Assembly: GCA_944375905.1 (NCBI GenBank)
Contig: CALWAS010000012.1
Span: 1-56,230 of the forward strand
Reading direction: 5' to 3'
Length of the DNA stretch: 56,230 nt
From: an uncultured Bacilli bacterium
GTDB taxonomy: Bacteria; Bacillota_I; Bacilli_A; RFN20; CAG-826
Shown in pieces: positions 24,037 through 47,603 of the stretch. How positions within the stretch are numbered: the stretch's first letter is position 1; the number at the start of each line of letters is the position of its first letter. A model generated the notes under the pieces. The model was not told the DNA's origin. It searched no databases and saw only the letters and a list, made by a program, of their open reading frames with translations. A program made the translations under genes and the position numbers.

Positions 24037-24363
24037 CCCGGCCCGGTAAGCCATGTTCTGTCGAGGACGGCAATTAATCTCGGCTTTCGCCGAAGCTAGG
24101 CGCTTCGTTTCGCGCTTCGCCTTTCCCCTACCAAATTTGGGTTTCTCGCTTGCGGGGTTTGCCTCGTTTCATCCGCCCCTCGCGGGGACGGCTCGTCTCT
24201 GTGGCACCTTAGGGAATCCTGTCTCGGGGAGACATTCATCCGCCGTTACGCGCTCCCGCGTACCTAAGCTTATCGGTTCGCTTAGCACAAACGTTACGGC
24301 CATCGCAGGCCGTGCGAGCATGGACTTTCCTCTGCCCGGGGGCAGCTGCCGTCTGGGCCGGGA
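24037..24363 (-). ncRNA. rnpB: RNase P RNA
   Basis: Minus-strand RNA of about 327 nt. The 5' conserved element is CAGAGGAAAGTCCATGCTC (RC of 24316-24334), the 3' element ACAGAACATGGCTTACCGGG (24042-24061). The helix P1 pairs CCCGGCCC at the 5' end (24355-24362) with GGGCCGGG at the 3' end (24037-24044). An internal GGCAAACCCC stretch also fits the family. It is the catalytic subunit that matures tRNA 5' ends. It sits 5 nt after the gpsB stop and about 17 nt before pgsA. I see no terminator at its 3' end. The gpsB-rnpB neighbourhood is conserved in Bacilli. Confidence 0.96.
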
Positions 24364-33144: not shown

Positions 33145-33157
33145 GAATGGATTCGCT

Positions 33158-33276
33158 TTCGCTTCTTCCAATCCGGACTTTACCGTTGGCGCCGGAATCC
33201 CACCGGCTCATGCCCATCAATCGACGGGCTCGCGGGCTTTACCGCCAGTCGACGTAACTATCGTCGCCCTGAAGCA
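33158..33276 (-). promoter_or_regulatory. FMN riboswitch (RFN element)
   Basis: Minus-strand RNA with the conserved RFN parts in order: CAGGGCGACG, CTGGCGGTAAAGCCCGCGAG, GAGCCGGTGGGATTCCGGCG, CCAACGGTAAAGTCCGGATG-like ending CGGATTGGAAGAAGCG. It senses FMN and should switch the downstream terminator, lowering ribU expression when FMN is plentiful. Confidence 0.95.
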
Positions 33277-33330
33277 CCTAAATTCTACGTAAGGGGGAAA
33301 TGGTTTCAAGCCCAAGTCGAATGCACGGAA

Positions 33331-40533: not shown

Positions 40534-41227
40534 GGAACAGCCCTCCCATTATCGTTTCTTCGACGAATTTCCTCTCGCGCTCCTCAAAGCGGGAAGCAAC
40601 GGGAAGCAAATAGCCAAGTGCAATGAGGCGCCTTGCCTCGTCGCGAGGAATTCCGCGGCTTTCCAGGTAATAAAGATGGTCCTCGTTTAGGCGCCCGACG
40701 ACAGCAGCGTGGGAAGCCTCGACGTCGTTATCCCCGATTTTAAGCATCGGAGCGGAGCGCCCGTCGCTTTTGGGATCGAAGACGATGACTTTCGCGGTCT
40801 GCCTTGTCTTCGACTTCCGGGCATACTTTCGTATTTCGGAAACGCCTGAGAAATCAAGGCGGCTCTCGCCGGTTGCCACGCCATAGCTTTCCACTTTCGC
40901 GGTCGTGTTAGGAGCGAGATGGATGACGCTCGGCGCGAATGATTTTTTGTCCCCGCTAGAGGCGAATGAAGAAAGAAACCATTGGGCGCTCGAACCTTCT
41001 CCCTCGAGCAGGATTTCTGATTCAAAATGCCCTGAATGGCCAATAACATCAGCAAAAACCACTTCAATCGACGCGTTTTCACCCACTTGGAAGCGATAGC
41101 GAACATCGGAAAAGGCAACCTTGGGAAGAAAGCGGACGAGCAGCCTCTCTCCGGCCCCGACCGTTAAATCGAGAGTATTTGGGATGGCGCCGAAGTAATC
41201 GATTCGACGCACGGAACTATTTTCCAT
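40526..41227 (-). CDS. sufD: SufD-like protein, short form
   Basis: 233 residues, versus roughly 400-440 for typical SufD. Only the beta-helix core and C-terminus remain, with VEASHAAVVGRLNEDHLYYLESRGIPRDEARRLIALGYLL-type SufB/SufD ending (about 180-218). Placed by position between sufC and sufS as in other Bacillota. ATG 41227 overlaps the sufC stop by 11 nt. Probably still forms the SufB2-free SufBCD core, but this is inferred. Confidence 0.85.
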   Translation of the reverse strand: MENSSVRRIDYFGAIPNTLDLTVGAGERLLVRFLPKVAFSDVRYRFQVGENASIEVVFADVIGHSGHFESEILLEGEGSSAQWFLSSFASSGDKKSFAPSVIHLAPNTTAKVESYGVATGESRLDFSGVSEIRKYARKSKTRQTAKVIVFDPKSDGRSAPMLKIGDNDVEASHAAVVGRLNEDHLYYLESRGIPRDEARRLIALGYLLPVASRFEERERKFVEETIMGGLFHD

Positions 41228-42047
41228 TGTCGATTGCTTCCTTCGTCGCACACACCCCAATCGAGACCTGGTTCATCGACGGGGCGATTTCCTTCTCGAT
41301 TTCGATTCCCAGTTCGCGCTTGATCCATTCGTAGCCTTCGCGGTCGACCCGTTCGATGAGCGACGGATCGCCATCGACGGCAATCCTGCCGTTTACCATG
41401 ATGGCCGCCCTCGTCGGCTTGAGCATCCGGTAGAGCCTTGCGTAGTGGCTCACGACGAGAAACGAAGTTCCCTTTGCCGCGGCTTCGTTGATGGCCTTCG
41501 CAACGACGTTTATGGCATCGACATCGAGGCCGGAATCGATTTCGTCCAGCATCGCAAGCGACGGGTCGAGCAGCAGCATCTGAAGAATTTCGTTCCGCTT
41601 TTTCTCTCCTCCCGAGAAGCCCTCGTTCAGATTCCGCTTGCTCATCTCGAGGGGAATGCCCATCTCTTTGTAGGCAGCTTCCATTTTCCGGTAAAACTCG
41701 AAAAGGGTCAGCGGTTTTCCCCGGTGGGCATTCATCGCCGCCTTGAGGAAATCAGCTGAATTTAGTCCAGGGATCTCCGAAGGATTCTGCATCGCGAGGA
41801 AGAGCCCGCGCTTGCTTCTCTCGTCGGGTCCGAGGTTAGTTATGTCCTCTCCATCGAGGATTATCTTGCCACCGTCCAAATGAAATCTCGGATTCCCCAT
41901 GATTAGGCCCAAAAGCGTGCTTTTGCCATGGCCATTCGGGCCGAGGAGGGCGAGGCTTTCCCCTTTTTTGATCGACAAATTGACGCCGCGGAGGATGCTT
42001 ATCCCGTCAACCGAGGCGTGAAGGTCAATGATTTCCAGTCTTTCCAT
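41217..42047 (-). CDS. sufC: SufC ATPase of the Fe-S assembly complex
   Basis: 276 residues. Walker A LGPNGHGKSTLLG near 35-47, signature FSGGEKKRNEILQML near 145-159, Walker B LAMLDEIDSGLDVD near 165-178. The usual SufC is about 250-260; the last 15 residues are extra. First gene of the nine-gene suf-mnmG-rsmG-parA-parB operon. GGAG about 9 nt before the ATG. Confidence 0.96.
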   Translation of the reverse strand: MERLEIIDLHASVDGISILRGVNLSIKKGESLALLGPNGHGKSTLLGLIMGNPRFHLDGGKIILDGEDITNLGPDERSKRGLFLAMQNPSEIPGLNSADFLKAAMNAHRGKPLTLFEFYRKMEAAYKEMGIPLEMSKRNLNEGFSGGEKKRNEILQMLLLDPSLAMLDEIDSGLDVDAINVVAKAINEAAAKGTSFLVVSHYARLYRMLKPTRAAIMVNGRIAVDGDPSLIERVDREGYEWIKRELGIEIEKEIAPSMNQVSIGVCATKEAIDNGK

Positions 42048-42262: not shown

Positions 42263-44386
42263 ATGAACAAAAAAAGAAGTGCTCTCGGCCTAGCTCTCTT
42301 GCTTGGCGTCACCATTGGGCTTGCGTCGTGCGACATGCCGACGGAAGTAGACAATGGCAGCGTTCTTACCTATACGGATGCCCAAGGCAATCGCGTGAGC
42401 TACACCGCCGAGGAGCTTCTGGACGACTATCTGGATGACGGCAGCTCGCTCAGCACGGAGTTCGACCGCGTTTACGAAGTTTTGGTCCGGAATTACTACA
42501 ATGATCCCTCGCAGGCTTCGGTTTTGAGGGAACTACAGGAAAGGGCCAGGGCGGACGTCATTACCGACAAGCAGACGGCGACTTCCAACGCCTCTAGCAA
42601 CGGAACGACTTTCGAGGAAGAGTTCGAGATCATTCTCAATTCCCACAACTGCGATAATGCCGACGAACTCTACCAGTACCACCTCTACCAAGAGGAACAG
42701 TCGCGTTTCCTCGACGATTTCTACGCGACCTTCGGCACCGGCGACTCCAAGATCAACGGCACTGAGGTCATGCGCGATGGCGAGCTTACCATCGACGGAA
42801 AGACGACGGCTGCCTTCCCCGCTAGCGAAGAATGGGGACGCGGCGATGCCGGTTACCTCAAGGAGCAGATGCCTTATCACATCCGCCATATCCTCGTTAA
42901 GCTTGCGAGCGCCACGACCGGCAATTTCACGCAGGACACCATCGGCGAAGCCGACGGCGGAGGCGAAACGACGAAACTCGCGACCGTCATATTCCGTCTC
43001 GCCGGGGTCGACAACAATCTGCAACCCGCGACCAACCGCTGGAACTTCTCGGAAATCGCCAGCCGTTTCTCCGACGACACCGGAAGCGCGGCCAATGGCG
43101 GCGAGCTTGCGACGAGCGATTCCACCGGCCTCATGACCAAGAGCATGGACAGCGATCTCGTCAACGAGTTCAAGCTTGGCATCTATGCCTATGAGTCCTT
43201 ATATAATCAACGCGAGAAGAGCACTGCCTACGGGCAGGCAAACGTCTATCGGATCACTCCGGGGCTGACCGAGTTTGCCGAAGACACGAGCGACATAGAC
43301 AACGAGCAGGTCCTCTCCGACGGAACGACCGTCAATGCCTTCTTCACCGAACAGGGCATCGGCACCATCCCCTTCGGCGCGGCTCTCGCCCTTTGGGACT
43401 ACCGCGATACCGATACGGATGACAACGGCAACACCGTAAACGACAACAATGCCGCCTTCTATCCCCGCAATATCGTTTTCAACAAGTACTTCAACAAGCA
43501 CAACGTCTGCGTGATCACGCCGAATGCCATCCAGCTAAATGCCGAAAAGCATGCTGGAACCAAAATTGCCGAAGCGGCTCGCAATGCCACCAATGTCGTC
43601 GGCGGCGACGGCGACAAGTTCGTTACCGGCGAAGACTACGACGGCGCCTATTGCGAAACCTTCGCTGCCCTCCCGGGCTTCCAGACCGATACGACCGACA
43701 TCCTCCCCGACATCGGCAGCAACGTGCTCACCGATAGCGAAGGACAGGTCGTCCTCGCGGTCCGTGCCGGAACCGACAGCTACCAAGGCGTTCACTTCAT
43801 CGTCATCAATCGGAGCGCCCTTTCGCAGTTCGGTCTCGCCTATGACGCGGAAACCAATAGTTACGTCGAGAACGCCGAGAAAGTCGCTAGCACGGCCGAC
43901 CTCAGCCAGTACTACACGACCTACACCACTTCTTCGAGCAACTACCCGACTGATCCCGAGACCAAGCAGCCGCTCAACACCTTCGTTAACTACAACGCCC
44001 CGCGCGTGACCGACCAGAATACGCGTTCGGGAAACCTCGTTAGCGAAATCCGCGGCTACAATGACAACCTGACTACCTTCCAGTTCCAGTCCTTGGTGGA
44101 TGGCACCTCGACTGGCCAGAAGATCACCTTCGCGGACGACGGCGTCAAAGAGAACATGCAAACCTATGTTCAGACTTCGCGTCAATCCACGATGGACGAC
44201 AAGTTCAAGACTTGGAGTGACAACTGGCTAGCCTATGCCGAACTCATCCAAGCCCAGGACGAGGAACGTGCCCGCGGAGCCTCGACGATGACCGGCTCGC
44301 TCATCAGCGAAGCCTGCGCCGTCGGCTACGGGACCCACAGCGGTGCCCTTTGGACGGAGAATGGAGCTTGCTACTATGCTGACTAA
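42263..44386 (+). CDS. Lipoprotein with parvulin-type (PrsA-like) foldase domain
   Basis: 707 residues. Signal peptide with lipobox LASC, lipidated Cys at 23. Parvulin pieces are in order but spread out: RHILVKLAS (about 207-215), FSEIASRFSDDTGSAANGGE (about 261-280), and VHFIVINRSALSQFG (about 509-523), with about 230 extra residues between. Likely a membrane-anchored extracytoplasmic peptidyl-prolyl isomerase/chaperone. AGGAGG is 16 nt from the ATG, a long spacing. Composition is rich in Asp, Thr, Asn and Tyr, poor in Lys, with C-ending codons, unlike the neighbouring minus-strand genes. Overlaps the next lipoprotein by 11 nt. The hit/yhaM neighbourhood matches prsA in B. subtilis. Confidence 0.82.
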   Translation: MNKKRSALGLALLLGVTIGLASCDMPTEVDNGSVLTYTDAQGNRVSYTAEELLDDYLDDGSSLSTEFDRVYEVLVRNYYNDPSQASVLRELQERARADVITDKQTATSNASSNGTTFEEEFEIILNSHNCDNADELYQYHLYQEEQSRFLDDFYATFGTGDSKINGTEVMRDGELTIDGKTTAAFPASEEWGRGDAGYLKEQMPYHIRHILVKLASATTGNFTQDTIGEADGGGETTKLATVIFRLAGVDNNLQPATNRWNFSEIASRFSDDTGSAANGGELATSDSTGLMTKSMDSDLVNEFKLGIYAYESLYNQREKSTAYGQANVYRITPGLTEFAEDTSDIDNEQVLSDGTTVNAFFTEQGIGTIPFGAALALWDYRDTDTDDNGNTVNDNNAAFYPRNIVFNKYFNKHNVCVITPNAIQLNAEKHAGTKIAEAARNATNVVGGDGDKFVTGEDYDGAYCETFAALPGFQTDTTDILPDIGSNVLTDSEGQVVLAVRAGTDSYQGVHFIVINRSALSQFGLAYDAETNSYVENAEKVASTADLSQYYTTYTTSSSNYPTDPETKQPLNTFVNYNAPRVTDQNTRSGNLVSEIRGYNDNLTTFQFQSLVDGTSTGQKITFADDGVKENMQTYVQTSRQSTMDDKFKTWSDNWLAYAELIQAQDEERARGASTMTGSLISEACAVGYGTHSGALWTENGACYYAD

Positions 44387-46133
44387 AAAGAAACCGATTA
44401 TTCTTACGGTCCTCGCGGCCTCGGCCCTCCTTCTCGCCGGATGCGACGATTTCGAGGCCAAACCGACGAGCCAAGTCTACGATGCCCCGATTCTCAATCT
44501 CGAGAACGACATCCCGCAGAATGCCATTTCGCTCATCTACGATGCCCTCGTCACGGCGGGCGATACCAATAGCGAAAGGGTCCTCAACAATATCCTTTAT
44601 ATCTACGCGGAATCCCAATACGGCTCCTTCTTCGACAAGACTTCGGAGAATGGCACCGTAATCGAAGGGCTCCGCAGCGTCGTCGAAAGCGGCGACGCGG
44701 CCAAGATCAAGGCGTTTGCCGAGACCTATCCGGCCTATGAAGGCGACAGCACTCGCGTCACGAACTTCTACAAGGACGTCCTCTACCGCATCCGCTCGGT
44801 CTTCTATGGCTACGCGCTCGATGCCAATTACCAGGATCGTTCGCGCTTCGTCGAGAAGAAGTTCTACGATGCCCAGATCGCTTCCTATTACGACATTGCC
44901 ATGGTCGACGGGGACATCTACCCCTACAATCGCGGATCGATGCAGGTCGAAGGCACCTTTGTTCTCTCCGAGGACATCGTCGAGCCGGGACCGATCAAAA
45001 TCGATGGTGGCAATCGCATGGCGGCCGGCGACATCGAAAATGCCTATTTCAAAGACATCTTCGGCACTTATCAAAACTACATTGAATCGGCGGTCCTCCC
45101 CGATATCTACCGGAACGAACTGACGGTTCAATACCTTTACACGGTCAACCGCACGACCCTTGAGCTCTCGAGCGCCCGCAAGGTCCATTACATTGCCCTC
45201 CCGGACAACGCCGACTATATCGGCGCCACCCGCGACCTAATGGTCTCCTATGCCCATAACATCGTCGAAGGCAGCACCTACGACGACAGCGTCTACGATC
45301 TCAACTTCCTCGATTCCCTATATGGCGGATACGATTACGTCTATGGGAACTGGAAGGAAAGCGATCCGGAGCGCTATGCCCTGGCTACCAAAATCTACCA
45401 AGACGCCAACTGGACGACCGACACGGTGACCATCGGCGACGAGCAGATCACCTACTATGTACAGTCGAGTTACGGCAAGATCATGAGCGACTACAAGAAG
45501 CTCTCCGATTCCCGTTTCCTCGATGACACGACGGTGCGCAGCGAATTCACCTCGAACGGCACCTATACCGTCCAGACCGGCCTCATGATCAAGACCAACG
45601 CCCTCCGGGCCGAGGATCACACGACCGACGGTTGGTTCGCCAATGCCTCGGCGATGGACGACAGCTACCCCTTCTCGAGCGATCTCTTCGATACCCGCGT
45701 TGCCAACGAGGTCGATTCGGTCAAGTTCGAAAACGGTGCCTACCAAAACAGCACCGCTAGCGACGGACTCGAATACGGCGTCTATCGCAATGGCCAGTAT
45801 TACATGACCACCAATAACGAAAACGGCAGCGATATCTCTTACATCGCCCTCAACGACGGCACCTACTACATGACGATCGTCGACGAGGCAGTGAAGCGGG
45901 CCAAGGTCAATAGCTCCTACGAAGACCAGTACTACGACGGCCTCGAAGCCCACAAAGGCGAGGAAGGCTCCTTCGCTGAGATGGTCCTTCGCAAGATCGG
46001 CTACTCGCTCTCTTCTTCCGAGACCTGGACTTCCAGCGCCCACAACTACTATGTCGAGAAGATGGCAACCATCTTCCACGACACCTACGTCTACGACTAC
46101 TTCGTGAAGACGTTCCCCGACATCTTCGACTGA
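44376..46133 (+). CDS. Lipoprotein of unknown function, partner of the foldase lipoprotein
   Basis: 585 residues. Lipobox LAGC with Cys at 23. The N-terminal region (NAISLIYDALVTAGDTNSER, about 38-57) is helical like a SurA/PrsA chaperone domain, and several Tyr- and Asp-rich beta segments follow, but I find no parvulin catalytic pattern. Start ATG 44376 overlaps the stop of the previous gene, with GGAGC about 10 nt upstream. Same biased composition as its partner. It ends in VYDYFVKTFPDIFD. I infer a foldase/chaperone partner; it could also be a substrate-binding lipoprotein. Confidence 0.72.
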   Translation: MLTKKKPIILTVLAASALLLAGCDDFEAKPTSQVYDAPILNLENDIPQNAISLIYDALVTAGDTNSERVLNNILYIYAESQYGSFFDKTSENGTVIEGLRSVVESGDAAKIKAFAETYPAYEGDSTRVTNFYKDVLYRIRSVFYGYALDANYQDRSRFVEKKFYDAQIASYYDIAMVDGDIYPYNRGSMQVEGTFVLSEDIVEPGPIKIDGGNRMAAGDIENAYFKDIFGTYQNYIESAVLPDIYRNELTVQYLYTVNRTTLELSSARKVHYIALPDNADYIGATRDLMVSYAHNIVEGSTYDDSVYDLNFLDSLYGGYDYVYGNWKESDPERYALATKIYQDANWTTDTVTIGDEQITYYVQSSYGKIMSDYKKLSDSRFLDDTTVRSEFTSNGTYTVQTGLMIKTNALRAEDHTTDGWFANASAMDDSYPFSSDLFDTRVANEVDSVKFENGAYQNSTASDGLEYGVYRNGQYYMTTNNENGSDISYIALNDGTYYMTIVDEAVKRAKVNSSYEDQYYDGLEAHKGEEGSFAEMVLRKIGYSLSSSETWTSSAHNYYVEKMATIFHDTYVYDYFVKTFPDIFD

Positions 46134-46152: not shown

Positions 46153-46155
46153 CTA

Positions 46156-46181
46156 GGGGCAGGGCAACCTGTCCCTTTTTT
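46156..46181 (+). terminator. Terminator of the lipoprotein pair
   Basis: GGGGCAGG/CCTGTCCC stem with GCAA loop (one G-U pair) followed by six T, 22 nt after the second lipoprotein stop. Confidence 0.85.
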
Positions 46182-46196
46182 CCTAGGAGAAACAAA

Positions 46197-46613
46197 ATGA
46201 AAGATGTCTTCTGCCGCATCATCGAAGGCGAGCTTCCGTCGACGAAAGTCTATGAGGATAGCGACGTCCTCGCCATCCTCGACGTAAACCCAGTGGCCAA
46301 AGGACACTGCCTCGTAATGCCGAAAGCCCATTTCCAGGACTTCCTATCAACGCCCAAGGATATTGTCCACAAGGTGTTCGACGTGGCCCAGCGCATCGGC
46401 CAGGCCGAGATTTCGGTCCTCGGTGCCAAGGGCATCAACATTCTGACCAACGTCGGAGAGAAAGCCGGTCAAAGCGTCCCCCACTTCCACGTCCACGTGA
46501 TACCGCGGTATGTCGCCGGCGAAGGCGGCTTCCAGCTTACGATGAACGCAATCGATTCCTCAACCCTCGACCTCCCGGTTCTTGCCAGCACCATTTCCAA
46601 AGGGCTCAAGTAA
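46197..46613 (+). CDS. HIT family nucleotide hydrolase
   Basis: 138 residues. Histidine triad SVPHFHVHVIPRY near 96-108, typical HINT/HIT phosphoramidase fold. AGGAGAAACAAA before the ATG. Located beside yhaM-like and foldase genes as hit is near prsA and yhaM in B. subtilis. Probably hydrolyses adenosine phosphoramidates; substrate inferred from family only. Confidence 0.93.
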   Translation: MKDVFCRIIEGELPSTKVYEDSDVLAILDVNPVAKGHCLVMPKAHFQDFLSTPKDIVHKVFDVAQRIGQAEISVLGAKGINILTNVGEKAGQSVPHFHVHVIPRYVAGEGGFQLTMNAIDSSTLDLPVLASTISKGLK

Positions 46614-46667: not shown

Positions 46668-47603
46668 CTACTTGCCTTTCGGTCGATAGAAGGAGCGGCC
46701 GTCGAAGGCAAAAAGCCGCTCGGTCCAGCCACCGGGCTTCGTCGCATCCAGCGCCCGGTCGATCATATTCATTTTGGCATCGAAATCGTCGATCATCGAT
46801 AGAGCCAAGGCTTCCCTGGTCATCGGCTCGACCGCGGAACCGAATTCGGGCTTCCCATGGTGGGAAAGGATCATGTGCCCGAGAAGGTCGGGCACTTCCC
46901 CGCTGATGTTAAGGCGGTCCGCTTCTTCCTTGATGATTGCCGCCATGATGGAGATATGCCCGAGAAGCTTTCCTTCGAGGGTGTACTCGGTCGCGACCGG
47001 ACCGGAAAGCTCGATGCACTTGCCTAAATCGTGGAGAAGGCAACCGGAAATGAGAAGATCGCGGTCGATGCTTGGATAAAGAGCGGCCACCTTTTCAGCC
47101 AAATCGGCCATGCAAAGACTATGGTAGAGGACGCCCGAGCGGAAAGCATGGTGGTTCTTGACCGCGGCCGGCCAGTCCACGTAGCGAGAGCGGTACTTCT
47201 CGATGATGGCGCTTACGAGGGTCTTCAGCTGTCCTTCCTTGAGCGAAGATAGATAACCATCGAGTTTCTTTTCGAGAATGTCTTTCGCGACCGGGGCCGG
47301 GGCAACGAAATTGTCCATGTTCACATGTTCCTTCGGGACGACGGTTCCCGAAAGGAGCTTGAGTTGGAGATTGTTCTTGAATAGATTCGCCTCGCCTTCC
47401 ACATAGACGACGTTTCGCGGGGCGAATGTTTCATAGTCCTCGGGATCGACGTCCCATTTGCGGGCATCGATGGTACCGGATTTGTCTTGAAGGACAATCG
47501 TCAAATATTTCTTCCCGGCATTGGAAACGCCTTGGGCGAGGCTCATGACGAGGTATTCGCCCCGTACATGCATTCCGTCTTCAATATCCTTGATGAGCAG
47601 CAT
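46668..47603 (-). CDS. yhaM: YhaM-type 3'-5' exoribonuclease
   Basis: 311 residues. N-terminal OB-fold (DKSGTIDARKWDV near 41-53) and HD domain with LYHSLCMADLAEKVA near 157-171, GCLLHDLGKCIEL near 186-198 and HHGKPEFG near 249-256. YhaM degrades short RNA/ssDNA from the 3' end. Overlaps recX by 23 nt. Last gene of the flippase-glycosyltransferase-recX-yhaM operon. Confidence 0.94.
   Translation of the reverse strand: MLLIKDIEDGMHVRGEYLVMSLAQGVSNAGKKYLTIVLQDKSGTIDARKWDVDPEDYETFAPRNVVYVEGEANLFKNNLQLKLLSGTVVPKEHVNMDNFVAPAPVAKDILEKKLDGYLSSLKEGQLKTLVSAIIEKYRSRYVDWPAAVKNHHAFRSGVLYHSLCMADLAEKVAALYPSIDRDLLISGCLLHDLGKCIELSGPVATEYTLEGKLLGHISIMAAIIKEEADRLNISGEVPDLLGHMILSHHGKPEFGSAVEPMTREALALSMIDDFDAKMNMIDRALDATKPGGWTERLFAFDGRSFYRPKGK

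Follow-up and report, generated by a model that had tools for sequence, protein, structure and literature searches.

The window analysed here is the whole stretch of 56,230 nucleotides (nt) of contig CALWAS010000012.1 (NCBI GenBank assembly GCA_944375905.1, positions 1 to 56,230, forward strand) from an uncultured Bacilli bacterium (GTDB lineage Bacteria; Bacillota_I; Bacilli_A; RFN20; CAG-826). It contains two adjoining genes for large lipoproteins, here termed A and B. Gene A (42263..44386, + strand), defined by its open reading frame, Pfam matches, AlphaFold2 model and conservation, encodes a PrsA-type parvulin lipoprotein of 707 amino acids (aa), almost certainly the PrsA orthologue of this order. 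Gene B (44376..46133, +), defined by its open reading frame, AlphaFold2 model and hhalign comparisons, encodes a lipoprotein of 585 aa that is very probably an inactive PrsA paralogue, i.e., a pseudo-parvulin. The stop of A and the start of B overlap by 11 nt (44376..44386, +), and both proteins start with a signal peptide and lipobox: LASC in A (42263..42331, +; Cys23 invariant in 26 relatives) and LAGC in B (44376..44444, +; Cys23 invariant in 27 relatives). The two reading frames, their lipoprotein nature and the overlap are as an earlier note on this DNA had described them.

Transcription Unit

An intrinsic terminator (AGGGGCAGGGCAACCTGTCCCT-TTTTT; 46155..46176, +) lies directly 3' of B, and 46 of 47 loci have a comparable hairpin and T-tract at this point. 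The hit gene (HIT-family; 46197..46613, +) is located beyond this terminator, 64 nt downstream of B and on the same strand. Because the terminator follows B, the transcription unit of A and B excludes hit, and an A-B-hit operon is thereby ruled out. Judged from the sequence, A and B form a bicistron, predicted to yield one two-gene message.

Gene A

The AlphaFold2 model of A (predicted local distance difference test score, pLDDT, 84.5; predicted template modelling score, pTM, 0.83) begins with N-terminal helices, followed by beta1 (205-213), helices at 235-247, 262-269, 273-277 and 301-314, an extra region, a closing hairpin (498-502/509-517) and C-terminal helices. The N-terminal helical, SurA/PrsA-like domain (residues ~49-203; 42407..42871, +) is recognised from these helices and by hhalign to the short PrsA proteins discussed below. 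The first part of the parvulin domain, from beta1 to the last parvulin helix (residues 204-316; 42872..43210, +), carries H209 and D272, and the last hairpin (residues 498-517; 43754..43813, +) carries the catalytic His511. The C-terminal helices (residues 582-670; 44006..44272, +) show a colinear but weak match to the C-terminus of short PrsA (hhalign, 31%).

PF13616 (Rotamase_3) matches A with 23.9 bits against a cut-off of 22.5, covering the first half of the parvulin domain, and was found in 23 of 26 members of the family; PF00639 was above its cut-off in the genome search. A is the sole parvulin/Rotamase match detected in the genome, where Pfam SurA_N_3 gave no match. The family profile of A matches PrsA of Staphylococcus aureus (2jzv) with E=2.2e-6, and long A and short PrsA align with 99.8% hhalign probability over 210 columns that include the N-domain, signal peptides removed. 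A PDB match to ACE2 (E=0.3) was taken as chance and rejected.

The catalytic positions are nearly invariant across 55 sequences of A: H209 in 54, D272 in 54, F303 in 53 and H511 in 51. By our own alignment these are equated with His123, Asp155, Phe177 and His200 of Bacillus subtilis PrsA (PMC12524980, Table 3), and A is predicted from them to be catalytically competent. The earlier note had proposed a parvulin with a split domain; the domain is indeed present, with conserved catalytic residues, and is interrupted before its last hairpin.

The interrupting insertion (residues 317-497; 43211..43753, +) is order-specific and absent from short PrsA. It separates the last parvulin helix from the closing hairpin and lies next to the active site of A. 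Its length, previously put at 230 residues, is 181 aa here and ranges from 106 to 233 aa across the 55 sequences. It contains the signature PRNxxFNKYFNKH (residues 401-413; 43463..43501, +), with R402 conserved in 54/55, N403 in 55/55 and N411 in 54/55, and this near-invariance suggests that the insertion is a functional module rather than filler. Across a sample of the class as a whole, only this order had an A with the insertion, matches elsewhere being mostly PrsA of ~310-370 aa. A weak match of the insertion region to a 402-aa protein in genome G240 was judged a false positive; we take that protein to resemble an arginine deiminase.

Gene B and the Short Pairs of Sister Families

No Pfam or NCBIfam family was above its cut-off in B, and the columns that are invariant in long B show no His/Asp/His pattern. 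A degenerate parvulin-like region with insertions of its own may occupy residues ~267-505 (45174..45890, +), with a last strand that matches short B, and is followed by C-terminal helices (residues ~533-585; 45972..46130, +) seen in the AlphaFold2 model and matched to the C-terminus of short B. Since the direct likeness of A and B is mostly that of their signal peptides (see Discussion), their kinship must be shown via shorter relatives.

Such relatives occur in families f20 and f25 of the class. There, sufC precedes a PrsA of 309-371 aa (typically ~330 aa) and a lipoprotein of 283-357 aa (typically ~290 aa), with hit next and yhaM at a greater distance. The profiles of short A and short B recognise each other, and hhalign aligns them at 99.7% over 255 columns, signal peptides removed. 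The three catalytic positions are largely kept in short A (H in 13/17, D in 17/17, H in 13/17), whereas short B has none of them in any of 17 sequences, with Tyr at the last position in 13; Rotamase_2/Rotamase matches to short B are sub-threshold. The match between long B and short B, again without signal peptides, reaches 97.7% with E=1.9e-12. A divergent form of long B of 610-635 aa, which the B profile missed or barely matched, adjoins A in family f8 (L104:10987-12864, L105, L106 and L107). It is colinear with short B in the N-domain (93.8%) and the C-terminus (93.4%), and SurA_N_3 reached 1.3e-5, just under the cut-off, in the one divergent B that was scanned.

The homology of short A and short B, the residue loss in short B and the match of long B to short B together lead us to consider B, with high confidence, as an ancient inactive PrsA paralogue. 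The simplest history, and the most likely one, would be that prsA was duplicated in tandem long ago, that the second copy lost its catalytic residues and that both genes then grew in this order. The earlier description of B as an inactive-looking partner is thus supported and would find its explanation in this duplication. In a further family of the class (f17) a PrsA occurs without B beside it. Another family contains an oversized PrsA-like lipoprotein of 764 aa (L172:3402-5696, +), matched by the short PrsA profile with E=9e-13, which is possibly an independent expansion.

Distribution and Synteny

Among 196 genomes of the order, profile searches detected A in 187 and B in 186; neither was matched in G106, G123, G132, G145, G206 and G097. 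Of the genomes that were A-positive and B-negative by profile, G043 and G048 have a divergent B adjoining A (L106 and L105). Separate occurrence of the two genes, which according to the earlier note would speak against a joint system, was not seen in the order wherever DNA was read: A and B were adjacent in 27/27 loci and co-directional in 53/53 long pairs, with a spacing of -50 to +18 nt, as well as in 16/16 short pairs. Locus L063 stands outside the 53-pair count because of gene calling, yet its A and B are adjacent.

The pair is flanked upstream by the divergent sufC of the sufBUSDC operon (41217..42047, -) and downstream, past hit, by a convergent gene for a yhaM-like exonuclease (46668..47603, -). 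This layout recurs across loci, and 49-50 of the 52 genera sampled in the order carry the pair at the suf/hit/yhaM place. The earlier note correctly placed hit and yhaM beside the pair, both being downstream; its statement that the pair lies on the opposite strand to its neighbours holds for suf and yhaM only and not for hit. Two related genomes (L076 and L078) are an exception to the layout, with a 708-aa gene between sufC and A.

Elsewhere, the window contains a full-length Rfam match to class B RNase P RNA (24042-24360, -) and a flavin mononucleotide (FMN) riboswitch aptamer (33156-33280, -).

Co-evolution and Composition

The tree distances of A and B are correlated at 0.93 (20 loci). Given four neighbouring genes, the partial correlation is 0.82, the highest of 15 gene pairs, the others reaching at most 0.60; with longer, faster neighbours as controls (15 loci) it is 0.69, the highest of 21 pairs. 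We regard this covariation as supportive and not as proof, because distances are non-independent and both genes are fast-evolving. The length of the A insertion is further correlated with the length of B (Spearman 0.70, no phylogenetic correction).

Both proteins are enriched in D, N, T and Y and depleted in K/R. On the codon adaptation index (CAI) against the ribosomal cluster, A falls in the 88th and B in the 96th percentile, relative to a background of 19 stretches plus the window and with a small ribosomal reference set chosen by position. The biased amino-acid and codon make-up reported before is thereby borne out, and of the two causes then offered, high expression or transfer, the codon bias points to the former, consistent with abundant proteins; transfer is contradicted by the synteny.

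Discussion

Our favoured reading, to which we assign a probability of roughly 0.6, is that a catalytic PrsA and a pseudo-parvulin partner act here as one foldase. A would be a foldase that acts outside the cytoplasm on a lipid anchor, its competent parvulin domain being enlarged by a module of 106-233 residues, and B would derive from an ancient tandem prsA copy that lost its catalytic residues and gained its own insertions later. We infer that the two probably join via their PrsA-type N- and C-terminal (N/C) domains, giving a cradle-shaped, heteromeric chaperone on the external face of the membrane. In this machine, A would supply proline isomerisation and B client binding or holding, perhaps also stability of A, and the inserted modules would offer further contact sites for clients or partners. 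An A-B heterodimer is plausible because PrsA homologues are active as dimers formed via the N/C domain (PMC12524980, PMC11853100). In addition, PrsA of Streptococcus pneumoniae without the catalytic His has no peptidyl-prolyl isomerase (PPIase) activity and still folds clients (PMC12524980, PMC11853100). A two-part folding system is likewise plausible from the shared bicistron, the co-evolution and the correlated growth in size.

Several results weigh against this reading. In Foldseek searches the model of A, whose elements come in the order expected of a parvulin fold, had its best matches with Pin1/Ess1 at E>1, none of them significant, which is probably due to the insertion; the model of B gave nothing significant, with PrsA among weak matches of probability <=0.25. 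The confident match between long B and short B is limited to 75 columns, i.e., the last strand and the C-terminus; the assignment of a parvulin-like core to long B is tentative and follows the order of elements in its AlphaFold2 model. The N-termini of A and B match at 94.7% in hhalign when signal peptides are included and not significantly once they are removed; we consequently reject this match as a signal-peptide effect, and the shared N-terminal layout claimed earlier did not stand as direct evidence. The covariation of A and B tree distances can also be obtained from shared fast evolution. Finally, the evidence that the two act together is indirect, and we hold a physical A-B complex to be slightly short of an even bet. 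An inserted module common to A and B is possible, since A ~353-427 and B ~385-450 match at 81% in hhalign; with a score of 21.4 against a column-shuffle maximum of 17.2, only modestly above the shuffles, we do not claim it.

The rival that we take most seriously, even if it appears unlikely, is that A and B are independent paralogous foldases, co-expressed but forming separate homodimers for different clients. The characterised PrsA homologues are homodimers (PMC12524980, PMC11853100), Listeria has two PrsA chaperones, PrsA1 and PrsA2, in one cell (PMC12826049), and co-transcription alone needs no complex. Against this stand the missing catalytic residues of B, the order-wide constancy with which the two genes adjoin, overlap and share a terminator, and a tree covariation exceeding that of neighbouring genes. 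It is less probable still that B is a non-chaperone adaptor docking A to the Sec translocon or to cell-wall synthesis, in a role like that of YfgM with PpiD. The core of long B has changed to the point where it matches no known family, and the stable chaperone-partner pair YfgM-PpiD exists at SecYEG (PMC9643414); B nevertheless very probably descends from a PrsA-type protein and contains no tetratricopeptide repeat (TPR)-like or other known adaptor domain.

If B were unrelated to PrsA, a lipoprotein adjoining A by chance, short B would be a different gene in the same place. The non-significant direct profile match of long A and long B without signal peptide and the Foldseek result for B would agree with this, but it is made rather improbable by the match of long B to short B, by the colinearity of divergent B with short B in both N-domain and C-terminus together with the SurA_N_3 match, and by the genomic slot and gene order common to long and short pairs. 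A recently transferred island would account for an amino-acid make-up off the genome average; the order-wide vertical synteny at the suf/hit/yhaM place excludes it for practical purposes, the codon usage moreover leaning to the ribosomal set.

As in the PrsA proteins of B. subtilis, Listeria (PrsA1/2) and S. aureus, A combines a lipobox, an N-terminal helical domain, a His/Asp/His parvulin and C-terminal helices, and it shares with prsA the place by hit and yhaM. It differs from known PrsA in its double length, the insertion with PRNxxFNKYFNKH and the inactive paralogue next to it. The inactive PrsA proteins of S. pneumoniae and of other streptococcal, enterococcal and lactococcal species are without the catalytic His, as is short B (His to hydrophobic, His to Tyr); the Tyr of short B is a replacement of the type described for S. 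pneumoniae PrsA (PMC11853100). In those species PrsA itself is inactive, whereas the operon studied here has both an active-looking PrsA and an inactive copy. PpiD-YfgM of Escherichia coli, a membrane-anchored parvulin chaperone with a stable partner, is an analogy of role only: YfgM is no parvulin paralogue, and the system is proteobacterial with transmembrane anchors instead of lipoproteins. SurA is a further analogy: its inactive P1 and active P2 parvulin domains lie in one soluble polypeptide and belong to one folding machine, and in A and B such units would be split over two lipoproteins.

In the papers searched, all of them open-licence literature, we found no description of this A/B pair and none of PrsA in Erysipelotrichia-type bacteria. 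That A is a PrsA is ordinary; less ordinary is the combination of a large conserved insertion within the parvulin domain and a dedicated inactive paralogue in one bicistron throughout an order, of which sister families have a shorter form. We tentatively propose, at less than even odds, that several uncultured Bacilli families have an obligate heteromer of active PrsA and pseudo-parvulin, that in this order matching insertions form a composite client cage, and that this would be the first two-gene PrsA machine.

In Gram-positive bacteria, protein secretion is limited by PrsA, which has so far been studied as a homodimer. If an active PrsA is indeed paired with an inactive one in a conserved operon, a division of labour between enzyme and pseudoenzyme evolved in extracytoplasmic folding. 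The insertion with its near-invariant PRNxxFNKYFNKH is a defined target for structure work. Our analysis also provides a likely function for two large lipoproteins of an uncultured lineage from the gut, one of which (B) had no assigned family.

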